Shown here: in pieces, positions 27,794 to 35,346 of the stretch
Position numbering within the stretch: position 1 is the first letter of the stretch
Layout: every line of letters begins with the position of its first letter
Assembly: GCA_016178155.1 (NCBI GenBank)
Contig: JACOTZ010000092.1
Span: 1-35,346 of the forward strand
From: Acidobacteriota bacterium
GTDB taxonomy: Bacteria; Acidobacteriota; Terriglobia; Bryobacterales; Bryobacteraceae
Reading direction: 5' to 3'
Length of the DNA: 35,346 nt
Made by a program: the position numbers and the translations under genes
Notes under the pieces: generated by a model
Told to the model about the DNA's origin: nothing
What the model saw: only the letters and a program-made list of their open reading frames with translations
Databases searched by the model: none

Positions 27794-28729
27794 TCAGCCG
27801 AGCAGCATCAGCAGCAGCGCTTTCTGCGTGTGCAGCCGGTTCTCGGCCTGGTCGTAAACCACCGAGTTCGGATGCTCCATGATCTCGTCGGTCGTTTCCT
27901 GGCCGCGCCGGGCGGGAAGACAGTGCATGAAAACCGCCTCGGAGCGGGCCTTGGCGAACAGGCCGCTATTGATCTGGTACGGCTGAAAAATACGGCAGCG
28001 GTCCGGGAGTTCGTTCTCCTGTCCCATGCTGGCCCAGACGTCGGTATAGACCGCGTGCGCGCCCGTGACGGCTTCCGCCGCTTCATTCGTGAAATGAAGG
28101 GTTCCGCCGTTCTCGGCCGCCAGCCGCCGGCCCTCGGCCACGATCTCCGGCCGCGCTTCGTACCCGAGCGGCGTCGCCAGCCAGAAATGCATGCCGAGCC
28201 GTGCCGCGTCGAGCATCAGCGAGTGCGCGACGTTGTTGCCGTCACCGACAAACGCCAGCTTGAGCCCGGCGAGCTTGCCGAACTTCTCTTTGAGCGTGAA
28301 GATGTCGGCGAGCGCCTGGCAGGGATGATAGAGATCGCTGAGGGCGTTGATCACCGGCACGGTCGACCACTGCGCCAGTTCGTCGATGGTTTCCTGGCGC
28401 AAGGTCCGGGCCACGATGCCCTGGGTCCAGCGCTCGATATTGCGCGCAACGTCCTTCACGGGCTCGCGCTCCGCGATCGGACCGACGCAGGTAACTGAGT
28501 CGCCGCCGAGCTGCTTAATCGCGAGCTCGAAGGTCAGGCGCGTGCGCAGCGACGGTTTCTCGAACAGCAGGCTGAGGTAGCGGCCATTCAGCGCCTTGAC
28601 GTAGCGCTCCGGCGTGCGCTTGACCTTGTGCGTCAGGTCGAGGACAGAGTTGAGCTCATCGACCGACAGGTCGAGATCCTGTGTCAGGTCCTGGGCCTGC
28701 CAGGCGGGTCTGGGTGAAGTTGTCGCCAT
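27794..28729 (-). CDS. argF: Ornithine carbamoyltransferase
   Basis: This 311-residue enzyme makes citrulline from ornithine and carbamoyl phosphate. Visible motifs are the carbamoyl-phosphate loop FEKPSLRTRLTFE, HPCQALADI, the amino-acid-binding AFVGDGNNVAHS region, and HCLPARRGQE near the C-terminus. It is first in the arginine operon and supplies citrulline to the fusion enzyme encoded next. The ATG at 28729 lies just downstream of two ARG boxes. Its first 50 codons and whole control region occur again near the right edge of the window. Confidence 0.95.
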   Translation of the reverse strand: MATTSPRPAWQAQDLTQDLDLSVDELNSVLDLTHKVKRTPERYVKALNGRYLSLLFEKPSLRTRLTFELAIKQLGGDSVTCVGPIAEREPVKDVARNIERWTQGIVARTLRQETIDELAQWSTVPVINALSDLYHPCQALADIFTLKEKFGKLAGLKLAFVGDGNNVAHSLMLDAARLGMHFWLATPLGYEARPEIVAEGRRLAAENGGTLHFTNEAAEAVTGAHAVYTDVWASMGQENELPDRCRIFQPYQINSGLFAKARSEAVFMHCLPARRGQETTDEIMEHPNSVVYDQAENRLHTQKALLLMLLG

Positions 28730-28741
28730 CGCGTACCGCCC

Positions 28742-28778
28742 TATGAATCTTTATTCAGTCTAATGAATAATCACACAT
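28742..28778 (-). promoter_or_regulatory. Tandem ARG boxes (ArgR operator) of argF
   Basis: Two 18-base sites are separated by one base. The first (28742-28759) is TATGAATCTTTATTCAGT, a full TGAAT-N4-ATTCA palindrome. The second (28761-28778) is TAATGAATAATCACACAT, close to the enterobacterial ARG box AATGAATAATTACACATA. Their half-sites start 20 bases apart, about two helical turns, as ArgR hexamers need. The pair ends 13 bases before the argF start codon and overlaps the likely promoter. Confidence 0.88.
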
Positions 28779-28796
28779 TTCGGGGGCGGGATGCAA
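28767..28796 (-). promoter_or_regulatory. Candidate argF promoter
   Basis: On the minus strand TTGCAT (28791-28796), an 18-base spacer and GATTAT (28767-28772) form a plausible but weak promoter. The same two elements with the same spacing survive in the displaced copy near 34.6 kb. The -10 element lies inside the upstream ARG box, so ArgR binding would block it. Confidence 0.5.
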
Positions 28797-28899
28797 GTGC
28801 GTCCGGGGGCGGGCGGCAGCCCGTCGCCGGATCGCTTCCGTTACTGCCTAAGACTTTCGCTTCCGCGGGATGTCGTTCATAATGGGAGAGAAGGAAGTC

Positions 28900-29094
28900 A
28901 TGGAAGCCAGACTCGGGGCGCAGACTGAATACGAATTCCAGGGGCGCCGAGTATCGGCCCTGGGCTTGAGGCTGCGCGCAATACGCGAACAGATCGAGGT
29001 GGCGGCTGCGCGCGGTGAGACTAAACTTCTGAACCGTGAAGAGCTGGATCGCGAGCTGGAAAATCTAAGGTCTGATGATCCGGACCTTCATTGA
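28900..29094 (+). CDS. Putative antitoxin of a PIN-domain pair
   Basis: A 64-residue, strongly charged, mostly helical protein (LRLRAIREQIEVAAARG, NREELDRELENLRSDDPD). I do not recognise its family. It is called antitoxin because it directly precedes and overlaps, by 20 bases, a PIN-domain toxin gene. The start at 28900 is chosen because AAGGAAG sits just ahead; an in-frame ATG 30 bases upstream (28870) is the alternative. Confidence 0.68.
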   Translation: MEARLGAQTEYEFQGRRVSALGLRLRAIREQIEVAAARGETKLLNREELDRELENLRSDDPDLH

Positions 29095-29494
29095 TTCGGG
29101 CGTTCTCATCGCTGCTGCGCGAGCTGAACATGCCGAGTCCGAGCCGGCTCTTCGATTGCTGGAAGACCCAGGCCGCCGGATGCTTACGAGCATGTTCGTC
29201 CGGCTGGAGGTTTACCCGAAAACTGCCTTTCACGCGTACGCCCTCCAGAGGGCGTTTCTGAACGAATTTTTCATGGACCCTTCGCTGGAATGGGCCAGCG
29301 ATCTAAGTGGGCTTGTCAATTTGGCCATCAGCGAATCAGAGCGGCATGGTCTTGCCGCTATGGACGCACTACATGCCGCAGCCGCCCTGCTGCTCGGGGC
29401 AGAGGAGTTCGTCACCACCGAGAAGCCCGGCAAGCCAATCTATCGCGCCGATGGATTCCACGTTCTGCACATCTCGACTTTCCAATCGACCTAA
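29075..29494 (+). CDS. PIN-domain toxin (VapC-like)
   Basis: A 139-residue PIN-domain protein, typically an Mg-dependent ribonuclease cutting tRNA or rRNA. Acidic residues are in the expected places: FIDSGVLIAA (Asp 7), FVRLEVYP (Glu 45) and AAMDALHAAAALLLGA (Asp 97). The last site reads FVTTEKPG, with Glu where Asp is more common. It overlaps the small gene before it, which fits a toxin-antitoxin operon. A hairpin with a CGTTGCT/AGCAACG stem follows the stop. Confidence 0.82.
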   Translation: MIRTFIDSGVLIAAARAEHAESEPALRLLEDPGRRMLTSMFVRLEVYPKTAFHAYALQRAFLNEFFMDPSLEWASDLSGLVNLAISESERHGLAAMDALHAAAALLLGAEEFVTTEKPGKPIYRADGFHVLHISTFQST

Positions 29495-29672: not shown

Positions 29673-29881
29673 ATGACCCTGCAATTCGGTGAACTCATCC
29701 TGATTCGAATGCAGTTTCACCAGACGAATGGAGCCAAAGTTCGTCCGGCAGCCAGGAAGGGAGCCATCGACAGTACAAGCATCCCGGCAAAAAGGGGCGT
29801 GTGACCATCGCCGGCCATCCTTCGATGGACCTGGACTCGAAGACGCAGAATAGTATCCTGAAACAAGCAGCAGGGCTGAAA
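29673..29881 (+). pseudogene. Degraded hicA toxin gene
   Basis: The last 40 or so codons before the hicB-like start read EGSHRQYKHPGKKGRVTIAG and then a typical HicA C-terminus (NSILKQAAGLK). That includes the active-site GSH motif and the family's usual tail. The expected N-terminal half is spread over other phases: KFVRQPGR appears in a neighbouring frame just upstream, so at least one frameshift has occurred. There is no stop in the HicA frame before the hicB start; one extra A near 29881 would explain the loss of a normal overlapping stop. The start coordinate is approximate. Confidence 0.65.
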
Positions 29882-30089
29882 ATGAGATATGCCGTTCTGT
29901 TTGAAAAGACCGAGGCCGGCTACAGCGCATGTGCCGGATCTGCCTGGATGCGTTGCTGCCGGAGCTACGATCGAGGAAACAACTGAGCTGATTCGCGGAG
30001 CCCTCCGAATGCACCTGGCTGGCATGATAGAGGACGGACAGCCTATTCCGGAACCGAAGACCATCGCGGAATACATCGTCACCGCCTAA
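29882..30089 (+). pseudogene. Frameshifted hicB antitoxin gene
   Basis: The first codons read MRYAVLFEKTEAGYSA, the normal start of HicB. The sequence then changes phase near 29929 and continues HVPDLPGCVAAGATIEETTE, followed by IRGALRMHLAGMIEDGQPIPEP, the normal rest of HicB, to a stop at 30089. A loss of two bases or gain of one at the joint explains it. As sequenced, the first frame ends after about 35 residues. It directly follows the hicA remnant, in the order hicA-hicB, opposite to the intact pair at the left edge. Confidence 0.72.
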
Positions 30090-30110: not shown

Positions 30111-32375
30111 TTACCGCGTAGCAACCCAAATAACTATCGGCTCACGAGCTGGAATACCCGCCACTATAGGCACGACCTCGAAAAATCCGGTACTCGTTTG
30201 CTGAAGCTGAACCTGAACCTGAGCAACTCCAGAGACGGCACCAGGCGAAGTAGTTGTGGAAAGAATACCTGCTCCCGTTGCACCCGGAGTGATTTCGACA
30301 GGTGGGCCAGGGATAATGGCTCCGGTTGCTTGCAGAGGTTCAGTTGGCCCCAAACCATTCATAAAGATTGTCACCGTGGAACCAGGCTGCGCTCCATGCG
30401 AGCAGGTGTTCAAAGTTCCATCGGCGTTGAGCGCCAGCGCATGTTGAGCGTGGCTGACGCCAATGCCACAGTAGAAATGGCCCGGTACGTCCGAGAGGAG
30501 GGCATCCGGCGAGAGAAAGACGCTTGGCTGCCGCTGAACTACAGGCAACGTTTTCCTCTCCATCAATCCTACACCCGGACTGACCACCTGCATCTCAACT
30601 GAATCCTGCCCGGCAATCTCATACGGCACCTGAATATTGATCTGCTTGCCCGAGGTGTACAGCACCGGCGCGACAATGCCATTAAATGTTATACTGACGC
30701 CTCGGAACGAGGAGGCGCTCCCGCCGGGAGGAACAGCGGCGCGAGAGGGCGCAATACGTGGACCGAAAATGCTGAGGACCTGTCCGGGAGCAACTCTTGT
30801 AAGCTGCACGTTGTCGGCAGGGTCGGTCAAGCAAGCCAGGTGCTCAGATCCAAAAAGATCAACCCTTGCAGCCATACCGTTGCTGCCGGCGGCGATCACG
30901 CTTCCGTCAGGCCTCACAGCCAGGGCCCAGGCGCTTGACGAAGTGCTCTGAGTATCAGGAAAACACGATGCGTACGTGCATGCCGGCGCCCCATAGATCA
31001 GTTGCGACGGGCTCAGGTTCGCGCCATCTGGGCTCAATCGGGCAACGAAACCGACACCCTGGGTGACAGCCGGTCCACAGCCAGCCGGGGCCGACGCGGA
31101 TAAACCCGGCAGGTCGTTCGAATTCGCCTGGCCGGTGATGTAGATATAACCATGATCTACGGTCATATCCGAAATCGCGTCTCGAACCGACCCGCCGAAA
31201 AAAGTGGACCAAATCAGGCCCGTACCGGTGGCATTGAGCTTCGTAATGTAACCGGTTGAGGGTGGCGGGTCAACCCGTCCTCTATCGGAAGGCAGGCTTG
31301 GCGGTGCTGGCGCATTGGCTACGTACACCGTCTGCAATGCCTGTGCTGTGATCGGATAATCGGCTGAGTTGGTGGTGCCCGCAATGATCGCGTTACCGGC
31401 AGCGTCTACAGCGATGCCGGCAGGCGTCGCTCCAAACGAACCGGTTACGAAAGTGGCATAGCCGAGTTTCGTCGCAGTCGGGTTGAGTTTTTCCACGAAT
31501 TGGTAGCTACACGGCAGGTAAACAATACCGCTGCCACGGCATACTTTGACTTGCGCGCTATCCTGAAACGCGCCAGGACTGGTTTGCAACGGCACGTTCC
31601 CTCCGATCGGCCCGGTCGCTGCGGCAGCGGTGTAGATATTCCCCTGCGGATCAAGTGCCAGGACTGTACCGCCGTATGCGAGTGTTGCGAACACAAGTTT
31701 GCTCAGGCCAGGGTCGAATTTCGCCAAGAAGAAGCCGTTGCCGGAGCCAGTGTCGCCAGGCGTAGTTGGAAACCCATCGGCGGATGACGTTCCCGTGAGA
31801 TACACCTCGCCCGTATTGGCGATCGCCAACGCACGGCCGGACGTCCGCGCGCTGCCGCCGAAATAGGTTGCGGATTGGACTTGTCCTTCAGGGGACAGCT
31901 TGGCAAGGAACGCCTGGCCGCCGTTCGCTGTTCCCAGTGCTGGCTGCAGTGCGCCCGAGGTTATTGGAAAATTGTTCGATAACGTGAAGCCCGCGACGTA
32001 AACGGATCCATCTGTCCCCAGCGCAATCGCCCTCGCAATATCGTCCGCGGAACCAGACAGGACGGTTTTGTAGAGCTGCGATCCGTCTGCCGAGAGCTTC
32101 GCCACGAACGCATCGGTGAGATTGCCCGTTTTGGCATCGCCCGGCGTCACCGAACCGGCAATGTAGATGTTGCCGGCGTTATCGATCCGAATCGCTCCGA
32201 GATGTGTGCCGTCGGGCTGCCGAGGAAATAGCCTCACCTGTCCGGCGAATGCCGGGATCACCAACAACGTACATAGTGCGTACTCCATAGAGGATGCGCC
32301 CCAGCGCACAAAGAAACGACGATGCGATCGATTAGACGCAGAACTCTTGTAGAGACCACTCGAACGCAGCTTCAC
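30111..32375 (-). CDS. Secreted beta-propeller (SBBP) protein with TIGR03437-type C-terminus
   Basis: A 754-residue protein. A hydrophobic signal-like segment (MEYALCTLLVIPAFA) starts at residue 30. Residues of about 45-520 are SBBP repeats, e.g. IRIDNAGNIYIAGS, IALGTDGSVYVAGFT and IAVDAAGNAIIAGTT, spaced as in a multi-bladed propeller. From about 535 to the end is the domain abundant in Solibacter-type genomes: FNGIVAPVLYTSGKQINIQV, then MNGLGPTEP. The GTG start at 32375 overlaps the stop of the upstream gene (GTGA), suggesting coupling; a start at residue 30 (32288) would give a more usual signal peptide. The role is unknown, probably surface or extracellular binding. Confidence 0.82.
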   Translation of the reverse strand: MKLRSSGLYKSSASNRSHRRFFVRWGASSMEYALCTLLVIPAFAGQVRLFPRQPDGTHLGAIRIDNAGNIYIAGSVTPGDAKTGNLTDAFVAKLSADGSQLYKTVLSGSADDIARAIALGTDGSVYVAGFTLSNNFPITSGALQPALGTANGGQAFLAKLSPEGQVQSATYFGGSARTSGRALAIANTGEVYLTGTSSADGFPTTPGDTGSGNGFFLAKFDPGLSKLVFATLAYGGTVLALDPQGNIYTAAAATGPIGGNVPLQTSPGAFQDSAQVKVCRGSGIVYLPCSYQFVEKLNPTATKLGYATFVTGSFGATPAGIAVDAAGNAIIAGTTNSADYPITAQALQTVYVANAPAPPSLPSDRGRVDPPPSTGYITKLNATGTGLIWSTFFGGSVRDAISDMTVDHGYIYITGQANSNDLPGLSASAPAGCGPAVTQGVGFVARLSPDGANLSPSQLIYGAPACTYASCFPDTQSTSSSAWALAVRPDGSVIAAGSNGMAARVDLFGSEHLACLTDPADNVQLTRVAPGQVLSIFGPRIAPSRAAVPPGGSASSFRGVSITFNGIVAPVLYTSGKQINIQVPYEIAGQDSVEMQVVSPGVGLMERKTLPVVQRQPSVFLSPDALLSDVPGHFYCGIGVSHAQHALALNADGTLNTCSHGAQPGSTVTIFMNGLGPTEPLQATGAIIPGPPVEITPGATGAGILSTTTSPGAVSGVAQVQVQLQQTSTGFFEVVPIVAGIPAREPIVIWVATR

Positions 32376-33323
32376 TGCGCTATCTCAACAGATGTTACGG
32401 AAAGCTGGATGCCCGACGAAGTCAATGCGTCATTGGGATCGGTCCGTTGCGTCCCCAAGGTGACGTATCCATTCATCCTGGATGTCGTTGCTCCGTAGTT
32501 TACACCTCCAGATGAAGTATCAACATTGAAGGCGGTTATCTGCGTCGAATATGTCGAATCCCAAACCTCAACCCTGAACTTGTACGTTGAATCCCAGCCC
32601 GCCCAGAACAGATAGCCGTTGAAGTAGTACGTCGTTCCCGTTGTCAAGTTAGTAATTTCCGTCGGGAAAAAGTATTCGGATACCAAAGGAGCGGTGCTCG
32701 GGTCCTCAGTGGCGTTCGGCGCTCGGCTCGTCCGGCACCAGGGATAGTTCGAATTGTCGTAGATGCTGCAGTTTGAGTTGGTTGACCAGTAGAAGTAAGT
32801 CTTGTCGAGAGATGCACCGGGACTCATTTGACGATAGAAGCCAAACTCTCTCTCGCCGGCCCAATCCGCCCGCTCACCAAAGTAAATGGCTTCATACATG
32901 TTCCCCGAAGACCCGCTCACCGTCCCTGAGAACGCCGCTTTCGGGCGGATACCAATGACCGCAGATTTTTGAGAACTCGTCTGGCCGTAGGAAGGTTGCC
33001 GAACTGGGTTGTTACCGGTTGCATCATATGCGGTATATACCCCTAGCGAAACCGAGTAATAGAACCACCAAGGCGGAGTAGCGGAAGAATTTCCAGCCAG
33101 TAGGGTATGTTTGCGTGTCTGCCGAACCAGTCTTGGTGTTGGGATAGGCGAACGGAGACTGTATTGAAGTCACCGTGGTACGGCTCGTGCTATTATTTAT
33201 GAAAGAAAACGCTTGGCTGTTCTCTCCGCTCATTATCGCGGTATAAGTCTGCGCAGACACGTTCACACCAAAACCCAAGAATGCAACCGTCGCCAGAGCA
33301 ATCCGAATTGGTTTCGGCTTCAT
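32372..33323 (-). pseudogene. Secreted hypothetical protein, split by a one-base frameshift
   Basis: The first part starts at 33323 with a clear signal peptide (IRIALATVAFLGFGVNVSAQ) after GGAG, and runs to about 33097 (TYPTGW). There the phase changes. The other frame goes on as NSSATPPWWFYYSVSLGVYT and leads without interruption into the frame ending at 32372. Removing one A of the AAA near the joint restores a single protein of about 316 residues, rich in aromatic, Ser and Thr residues and with paired cysteines (NSNCSIYDNSNYPWC). It has no family I recognise. As sequenced, the first frame ends at 33024. It could be a sequencing error, a real inactivation or a slippery site. Its stop overlaps the start of the propeller gene. 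Confidence 0.72.
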
Positions 33324-33364: not shown

Positions 33365-34079
33365 CTATTTTGCGCGCAGAGTGAATACGGCTAGAAACTC
33401 ATCACTGCCATAAGTGGCCGGCATGGGAATCGGGGCGTTGGATAGGTAGGCGTTCCCATTCGCATCGAAGAGTTGAGCGCGGATGCTGCTCATGCCGAGA
33501 TTCCATCTCATACTCGTCGGGATAACGGTGGCTGCTTCGACCGCATTAGAGACGGTCGTTGAAGGTACAATTTGAAGGGGGATGCGCGTGCGGGTGATGC
33601 CTTCGTCGGCAAAAACGTGCAGGAGGAGGGGATCGGGAACGGCTAGCGTGCCTAGGGGAGAGCGAAGAAGCCCGTCGGCGTCGATAACCCTTAATCGCAT
33701 TCGAATTCCGACCGGCGCAGTCATGCGTACTGCAGGCATATTAACTCCAGCCTTGACTTCAATGGGTTTGGAGAACCTGCAGGAGTCTGCATAGTTGCCC
33801 GTCGCGGCAGAGCACAACCGGTACGTATATCCCGCCGTGGCAGCCACGGTAAATCGTCCGTCAGATCCCGTTCTCGTTTCGATGACCCTAACAGGCCTCG
33901 TTGAAGACGTTGCGGTTATCTTTACTTGAGACAGGGGCTGGAGCGAATCTTCGGTAAGTAGCTGCCCGGGTAAGTAGCTGCCCGACTAAAGTGACGGTTT
34001 GCGCGCTGACGTGTGGGCAGATGAACAGGAGAGTGACGGCCAGGGAGGCGCGGGATGGTGGGACACGGTTGATGAGCAT
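33365..34079 (-). pseudogene. Secreted carboxypeptidase-regulatory-like protein, broken by a 16-base duplication
   Basis: The N-terminus (start 34079) has a signal peptide (LAVTLLFICPHVSAQ) and then VTLVGQLLT. The sequence then repeats 16 bases exactly (33953-33984), shifting the phase; the original frame reaches a stop at 33888. With one repeat unit removed the protein reads VGQLLTEDSLQPLSQVKITA and continues TGSDGRFTVAATAGYTYRL, a typical CarboxypepD_reg-like or Cna_B-like beta-sandwich, to the stop at 33365 (about 232 residues). The region after the duplication is intact. It lies 41 bases before the next secreted-protein gene and is first in that set, behind a good promoter. Confidence 0.75.
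33953..33984. repeat. Perfect 16-base tandem duplication inside a coding region
   Basis: The unit GGTAAGTAGCTGCCCG occurs twice head to tail (33953-33968 and 33969-33984). As 16 is not a multiple of three, it shifts the reading frame of the minus-strand gene; deleting one unit restores it. Confidence 0.95.
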
Positions 34080-34284
34080 TCTTCGTTCTCTAGATTTAAG
34101 AGTGGTAAAAAAAATCGCTGGTGCAAGACTGTTTACGTCGAGGATTATCCAATCGTACTACAAGTTTTAGAACAAGTCAACAAAAAAAACCAGCCGTATC
34201 TTCCCCTACCAGAGAGCGCCAAGGCCGTTATTTCCCGCTAGTCCGGCATTTTTGGCAGGCGCGACGGACGGCTCCACTCGACGC
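34080..34284. other. AT-rich leader and spacer
   Basis: Upstream of the secreted-protein set. It is clearly richer in A/T than the rest of the window and includes two runs of eight A. It holds the promoter listed separately. A plus-strand open frame across it (33999-34241) starts inside the antisense of a signal peptide and has no family character, so I do not call it a gene. Confidence 0.35.
34152..34180 (-). promoter_or_regulatory. Promoter of the secreted-protein gene set
   Basis: On the minus strand TTGACT (34175-34180), exactly 17 bases and TACGAT (34152-34157) match the housekeeping consensus well. The expected transcript start lies about 65 bases before the ATG at 34079. Confidence 0.6.
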
Positions 34285-34336
34285 GGTATAAGGTTCTGGA
34301 CAACTACCCCGGTATAAGGTTCTGGACAACTACCCC
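34285..34336. repeat. Perfect 26-base tandem duplication
   Basis: Two identical 26-base units (34285-34310, 34311-34336) each begin GGTATAAGGTTCTGGACAAC. The sequence is non-coding and lies between the secreted-protein promoter and the argF copy. It could be the end of a lost mobile element or a slipped-strand duplication. Confidence 0.92.
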
Positions 34337-34371: not shown

Positions 34372-34557
34372 TTACAGCAGTAGCACTTGTAGGATCTGGA
34401 GCGGACGGCGGCCATGCAGCGCCTTGCCGTAGCGCTCCGGCGTGCGCTTGACCTTGTGCGTCAGGTCGAGGACAGAGTTGAGCTCATCGACCGACAGGTC
34501 GAGATCCTGCGTCAGGTCCTGGGCCTGCCAGGCGGGTCTGGGTGAAGTTGCCGCCAT
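34372..34557 (-). pseudogene. Truncated duplicate of the argF 5' end
   Basis: The frame starts ATG at 34557 and reads MAATSPRPAWQAQDLTQDLD and on, with nearly all of the first 50 residues identical to argF in this window. Similarity ends exactly after the codons for Gly-Arg at 34408, and 11 unrelated codons follow before a stop. All catalytic parts of the enzyme are missing. If translated it would give a 61-residue peptide, but it cannot be an ornithine carbamoyltransferase. Confidence 0.88.
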
Positions 34558-34635
34558 TGCGCACCTATGAATGTTTATTCAGTCTACTGAATAATTACAC
34601 ATTCTGGGCACCGGATGCAAGTCCGCCCGGTGGGT
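34408..34635 (-). repeat. Second copy of the argF promoter-operator-start region
   Basis: About 228 bases are a diverged copy of 28580 to about 28812. The copy includes 150 bases of coding sequence, the leader (with four bases missing between start codon and operator), both ARG boxes and the -35/-10 elements. Differences are scattered single bases, several of them silent, so the copy is not brand new. The right boundary is approximate. Confidence 0.9.
34566..34602 (-). promoter_or_regulatory. ARG boxes in the displaced argF copy
   Basis: Box 1 (34566-34583) is TATGAATGTTTATTCAGT and box 2 (34585-34602) is TACTGAATAATTACACAT. Both half-site cores are kept, and box 2 is closer to the enterobacterial ARG box in its AATTACACAT part than the argF original. 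TTGCAT (34615-34620), 18 bases and AATTAT (34591-34596) would be the matching promoter. Confidence 0.8.
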
Positions 34636-34949
34636 CGAGGCGGTCCGGCGCCCAAGTTGGCAGGGCGGCGGCTCCAGGGGGCAAGGAAGCTGCACCTGCT
34701 TGGGGTCGTCTGCGGAGCGTTCCAGACAGCGAGCGGGCGCGTGAGCCAGGCGCGCAGCTCTGCTGCTTTCGAGGCTGCGCCGCCCGCGCCTGCGTCCCTG
34801 CGTTCTCGTTTGCGGCGAGACCGAACGGTGCGTCAGCGCTGCATTGTCTACAGTTCGCTGGAGACTCGGCCGCGAGACCCGGCTTGCGCGGGCGGCCTCT
34901 AGGTCGCGGCGAGCAGCGCATCAATGACTTCGGCCAGGCCGGAAAGCCT
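34636..34949. other. GC-rich stretch with no supported gene
   Basis: About 310 bases between the argF copy and the RHS-like remnant. Frames are open on both strands but show no family character. On the minus strand a short frame ends GLAEVIDALLAAT before a stop at about 34900; it looks like a natural protein end but is too short to name. It is probably more gene debris. Confidence 0.3.
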
Positions 34950-35233: not shown

Positions 35234-35346
35234 ATGGCCGGAGTCTCCGACGGCCCGAAAGCGGAGTTCGAAACGAACACCCAGTAGTCGCTCAGGCGCT
35301 CGCTGCAGCAATCCGTCCGGTTCCAGATCTCGATCCGGCTGATCGT
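35218..35346 (-). pseudogene. F5/8 type C (discoidin/fucolectin-like) domain fragment, cut by window edge
   Basis: The minus strand, entering from the right edge, reads ISRIEIWNRTDCCSERLSDY and WVFVSNSAFG, characteristic of fucolectin-like carbohydrate-binding domains. It ends at a TAG at 35218 soon after ETPAIRGN, where the similarity stops. The rest of the gene lies outside the window; it may be a truncated C-terminus rather than a dead gene. Confidence 0.55.

Follow-up and report, generated by a model that had tools for sequence, protein, structure and literature searches.

We asked whether an exact 16-bp tandem duplication in a gene for a secreted protein works as a reversible switch or is a lesion by which the gene lost its function. 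The duplication lies at positions 33953-33984 of the window, i.e., the whole stretch of DNA that was analysed, which is one entire contig (C287) of 35346 bases with its right end at 35346. The draft genome has 477 contigs, a total of 5.60 Mb and a completeness of 87%. The best matches of its argF product come from MAGs named Acidobacteria, Bryobacterales, Bryobacteraceae and the like, with at most 71% identity, which makes an uncultivated member of the Bryobacterales the most likely source.

The duplication and the gene it breaks

The array has a period of 16, with 2.0 copies and a 100% match, as reported by Tandem Repeats Finder and read directly from the sequence. It occurs a single time, as a 32-bp array, in the 5.60 Mb of its own genome. 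These observations bear out the exact 16-base tandem duplication described in an earlier note on this DNA. Allowing up to one mismatch, the 16-bp unit was found nowhere in its own genome beyond its two copies. At its edges the array stops at exactly two copies with zero extra matching bases, as do four of the 14 exact tandems in the census described below, itself counted. The following features are involved:

33953-33968, minus strand: lower of the two 16-bp copies, read in the same frame as the 205 downstream codons
33969-33984, minus strand: upper of the two 16-bp copies, read in the same frame as the signal peptide
33888-34079, minus strand: truncated reading as the sequence stands, with the signal peptide, then out of frame to the stop (63 aa)
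33365-33982, minus strand: rest of the secreted CarboxypepD_reg-like gene, open for 205 codons, with its stop at 33367-33365
34152-34180, minus strand: promoter-like site upstream of the start; one found versus 1.0 expected in shuffled sequences, no functional evidence

The host gene is encoded on the minus strand, from 34079 to 33365, and consists of a signal peptide and a carboxypeptidase-regulatory-like domain. Since 16 is not a multiple of three, translation goes off frame at the array and stops after 63 codons. The frame of the signal peptide (from 34079) and the downstream frame (from 33982) are offset by 97 nt, which is 1 modulo 3, as is 16. Each copy encodes GQLLT, the upper one in the frame of the leader and the lower one in the frame of the domain. 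The offset, the early stop and the 205 codons that are open downstream confirm that the duplication breaks the gene. Across these 205 codons the downstream frame has no stop, versus seven to 11 in each of the other five frames, and its codon-usage score (-0.110) is barely separated from that of one frame on the opposite strand (-0.114). The leader resembles a signal peptide and ends in SAQ, as judged by eye on the translation, and it sits directly before the domain, as judged by eye and from the spacing.

The break is not old, because the 205 downstream codons carry no second lesion. The earlier note had found no other damage in the downstream frame, and this holds for the gene itself; it fails for the neighbours, of which the next gene is frameshifted and the hicB is split. 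A very recent event, as had been suggested, is possible, with weak support: 16 identical bases survive a divergence of 5% with a probability of 0.95^16, i.e., about 0.44, and the identity of the two copies tells little about their age. The downstream piece scored 20.5 bits against the Pfam profile PF13620 (CarboxypepD_reg), below the cut-off of 32.3, and its predicted fold, modelled for this piece alone, had a mean pLDDT of 43.5. The model thus gives no confirmation of the beta-sandwich proposed earlier, although the CarboxypepD_reg domain of the family fits it. Sequence matches in the PDB had E-values of 0.1 or worse and were taken as chance.

Homologues and the ancestral copy number

We found family matches (E ≤ 0.001) in 25 of the 237 family genomes, own genome included, and 37 matches in all, counting the query. 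The best match outside the query had 40% identity over 52 residues and the others had 21-36%. Three homologues were scanned with PF13620, of which two passed the cut-off (42.0 and 38.9 bits) and one scored below it (23.2 bits). These results favour placing the product in a secreted family whose domain is of the CarboxypepD_reg type, in agreement with the secreted protein of the earlier note. In family members a single frame runs through the leader, a strand of the I-x-G-x-V pattern and the domain, and the downstream frame of the window gene aligns with the family from this same strand on (MAFFT). The upstream piece was misplaced by MAFFT, and its spacing was taken by eye and from a separate spacing count. 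Five loci were dropped: L003, L154 and L155 (wrong best frames), L166 (partial frame) and L167 (no match). The family alignment was also made without L158, L161, L162 and L165, and it included the paralogue of the own genome, which came from a separate search.

In the upstream frame of the window, six residues separate the post-signal Q from the G of the first strand. The same spacing was found in three of the 13 members listed (L004, L006 and L164); of the remaining ten, three lack such a Q, six have values of 3 to 9 and one gives a spurious value of 43. Because the spacing from leader to strand matches that of these three members and the copies encode GQLLT in their respective frames, a single unit was most likely ancestral. 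The earlier note held that one unit would restore the signal peptide and the domain, and the one-unit spacing of the family agrees with this. A related-locus search of genome_contigs gave 211 pattern matches and no relative, and searches of 41 and of 237 genomes gave distant relatives only, none of them close enough for one and two units to be compared.

Exact tandem duplications in the genome

We made a census of tandems in 141 of the 477 contigs (1,642,728 bases, window included), with contigs longer than 20 kb cut to 20 kb, except for the window. It gave 14 exact tandems of period at least 13, or about nine per Mb, of which two are in the window. When the 140 sampled stretches other than the window were simulated once with an order-3 Markov model, no exact tandem of this period range appeared. 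Such tandems exceed chance, yet they are ordinary in this genome and not rare. A genome-wide set of switches was considered and rejected, as a recognisable gene was not shown to be split by any of the 12 exact tandems outside the window (period at least 13). For five of these 12, the overlapping open frames (five in all) had no Pfam match at E 0.01.

Three exact tandems of this genome (L093:7744-7810, L117:919-964 and L054:233-266) have a common GTCGCGGCTCGG core and are perhaps an interspersed repeat family.

A probably lineage-specific segment next to argF

The broken gene lies in a segment upstream of argF, for which we annotated these features:

28580-28828, minus strand: 5' end of argF and leader; the intact argF (OTCase gene) is 27794-28729, and this stretch is copied at 34408-34652
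29693-30086, plus strand: hicAB-like toxin-antitoxin pair; the HicB match covers the profile from position 16 on and does not share the frame of the preceding piece
30111-32375, minus strand: intact 754-aa SBBP beta-propeller protein with a TIGR03437 (Solibacter C-terminal) domain
32372-33323, minus strand: next gene downstream, for a secreted protein, whose reading changes frame near 33090, where no tandem repeat lies
34284-34336, no strand: second exact tandem duplication, with a 26-bp unit, intergenic, upstream of the broken gene and about 300 bp from the 16-bp array
34408-34652, minus strand: second, truncated argF 5' end; the match is 89% as a whole and 96% over 158 bp

The gene at 32372-33323 begins 41 bases past the broken gene, in the same direction, and ends with its stop at 32372; its leader also ends in SAQ. 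One family homologue, L256, reads both of its pieces in a single frame, the first with a weak E-value of 0.15 and the second with 8e-15, and this one family member is the main evidence for the break. The hicB-like reading is likewise split over two frames, its N-terminal piece having been assigned by eye. A PIN-domain frame at 29075-29494 (E 3.4e-8, above the Pfam cut-off) adjoins the hicAB-like pair.

The kilobase bins between 29 and 35 kb have a GC content of 0.53-0.61. The open frames of this segment are short, with two exceptions (the 754-aa gene and the broken neighbour's second piece), whereas the stretch from 1 to 28 kb is nearly all long frames. At 80 argF loci of relatives, no counterparts of the segment's proteins were found near argF, save one weak SBBP match (L178). 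The simplest reading of the 29-35 kb stretch is a lineage-specific segment in decay. Its intact 754-aa gene speaks against poor sequence here, and it shows that the decay has not gone to completion.

From 34408 to the contig end, we recognised by eye, beside the truncated argF copy, fragments that resemble YD-repeat and aminotransferase coding sequence. Contigs C445 and C205 carry parts of these fragments as well. Within the final 1.1 kb of the window lie the truncated argF copy, other gene fragments and the 26-bp exact tandem, of whose unit an 18-base part was found nowhere else in the own genome with up to two mismatches. The two argF 5' ends, 5.8 kb apart, flank the AT-richer segment, an arrangement suggestive of an insertion or a rearrangement by which a truncated argF copy was left behind.

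A switch or a loss of function

The earlier note had proposed phase variation; slipped-strand gain and loss of the 16-bp unit would then turn the secreted protein off and on. The array is indeed an exact tandem whose unit is not a multiple of three, it is placed at the frame break and near the 5' end of the gene, and the downstream frame is undamaged. There is also a precedent in the capsule genes of pneumococci, where an excerpt of PMC4022640 links duplications to switching. The array, however, has only two copies of a unit that occurs nowhere else in the genome, and we have one sequence with a single copy-number state and no allelic variation. The next gene is frameshifted where there is no repeat, so the loss of one unit would not restore the gene set, and other genes of the segment are also broken. 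Nor was a gene switch shown at any of the 12 exact tandems outside the window. Phase variation is thus unsupported, and we hold it to be distinctly improbable. In one particular form of it, a free-living acidobacterium would use the duplication as a reversible switch of a secreted beta-domain protein, its population being a mixture of one-unit and two-unit cells and the frameshift of the second gene a separate accident; this seems very improbable.

An artefact of assembly or scaffolding near the contig end would mean that the 16-bp duplication, and the 26-bp one, are absent from the real DNA. The genome is a fragmented draft, the distance of the window's two exact tandems from the end of the contig is 1.0-1.4 kb, and this end holds the fragments that recur elsewhere in the genome. 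Yet other exact tandems of the genome are well inside contigs, e.g., 4081 and 4444 bases from the nearer end, and k-mer assembly requires reads across the junction. The stretch is not generally error-ridden, because an intact 754-aa frame lies between the broken genes. We therefore regard an artefact as unlikely. It is extremely improbable that the functional form is the 63-aa product or one started internally, e.g., at the GTG at 33847 (160 aa): the frame 33847-33365 is open and has this start, but its product would be devoid of the signal peptide and of the first strands that the family keeps. Programmed frameshifting was rejected, as the break is explained by the exact two-copy unit and by the one-unit spacing of the family. 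An insertion sequence that was excised and left a footprint was disfavoured, since the unit occurs nowhere else in the genome; a target duplication of 16 bp is also unusually long for an insertion sequence.

We conclude that the array is probably a loss-of-function duplication in a decaying, lineage-specific segment, and not a switch. A 16-bp tandem duplication would have arisen by chance within the codons of the first beta-strand of a secreted carboxypeptidase-regulatory-like gene, after which ribosomes would leave the frame and stop after 63 codons. The AT-richer, lineage-specific segment upstream of argF, in which the gene lies, would by then have held several broken genes. Because several genes of the segment are already broken, the duplication may be read as a further loss-of-function lesion in decaying DNA. 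Slippage could physically remove one unit, as in any tandem duplication, and nothing shows that this serves as a switch. The duplication, the frame break, the one-unit spacing of the family and the broken neighbours were observed; a single origin, a lack of selection and a low reversion rate of the duplication are what we infer.

Comparison with known systems

Spontaneous duplications with phase variation in pneumococcal capsule genes (type 3 locus, cap8E and tts) are attributed to Waite et al. (2001, 2003) in the excerpt of PMC4022640. The likeness is that a tandem duplication inside an ORF turns the gene off; the difference is that phase variation is reported there, whereas here there is one static environmental sequence beside broken genes. 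In the simple-sequence-repeat contingency loci, of which an excerpt of PMC3711429 gives the AGTC repeats of Haemophilus influenzae mod as an example, the frame is likewise set by the number of tandem copies, but these loci have many short units and the array has two copies of a long one. Table 1 in the same excerpt tells phase variation from pseudogenes by homologues with frame breaks, in a cluster of 5 or more. Among the 36 other family matches, stops inside the match were found in two (G241:C406 and G236:C20), short of such a cluster.

A literature search on phase variation and tandem repeats in Acidobacteria listed two papers, both genome-wide surveys, and a search joining the Pfam name with the phylum returned no paper; one on duplications at microhomologies returned mainly work on cancer and yeast. 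If both states were shown, duplication-based switching would extend from pathogens to soil-type Acidobacteriota. As it stands, the locus means little more than a further example of a short duplication that breaks a dispensable secreted-protein gene in a decaying segment.

There is also a likeness to frameshift pseudogenes in general, in which an otherwise open gene is interrupted by a single indel whose length is not divisible by three; the locus is a single such case among other broken genes of its segment. As expected of these, the family reads the site in one frame, and neighbouring genes have also decayed, with the 754-aa gene intact. The break differs from theirs in being made by an exact 16-bp duplication, and not by an indel of 1-2 bases, so that exact reversion is possible in principle.
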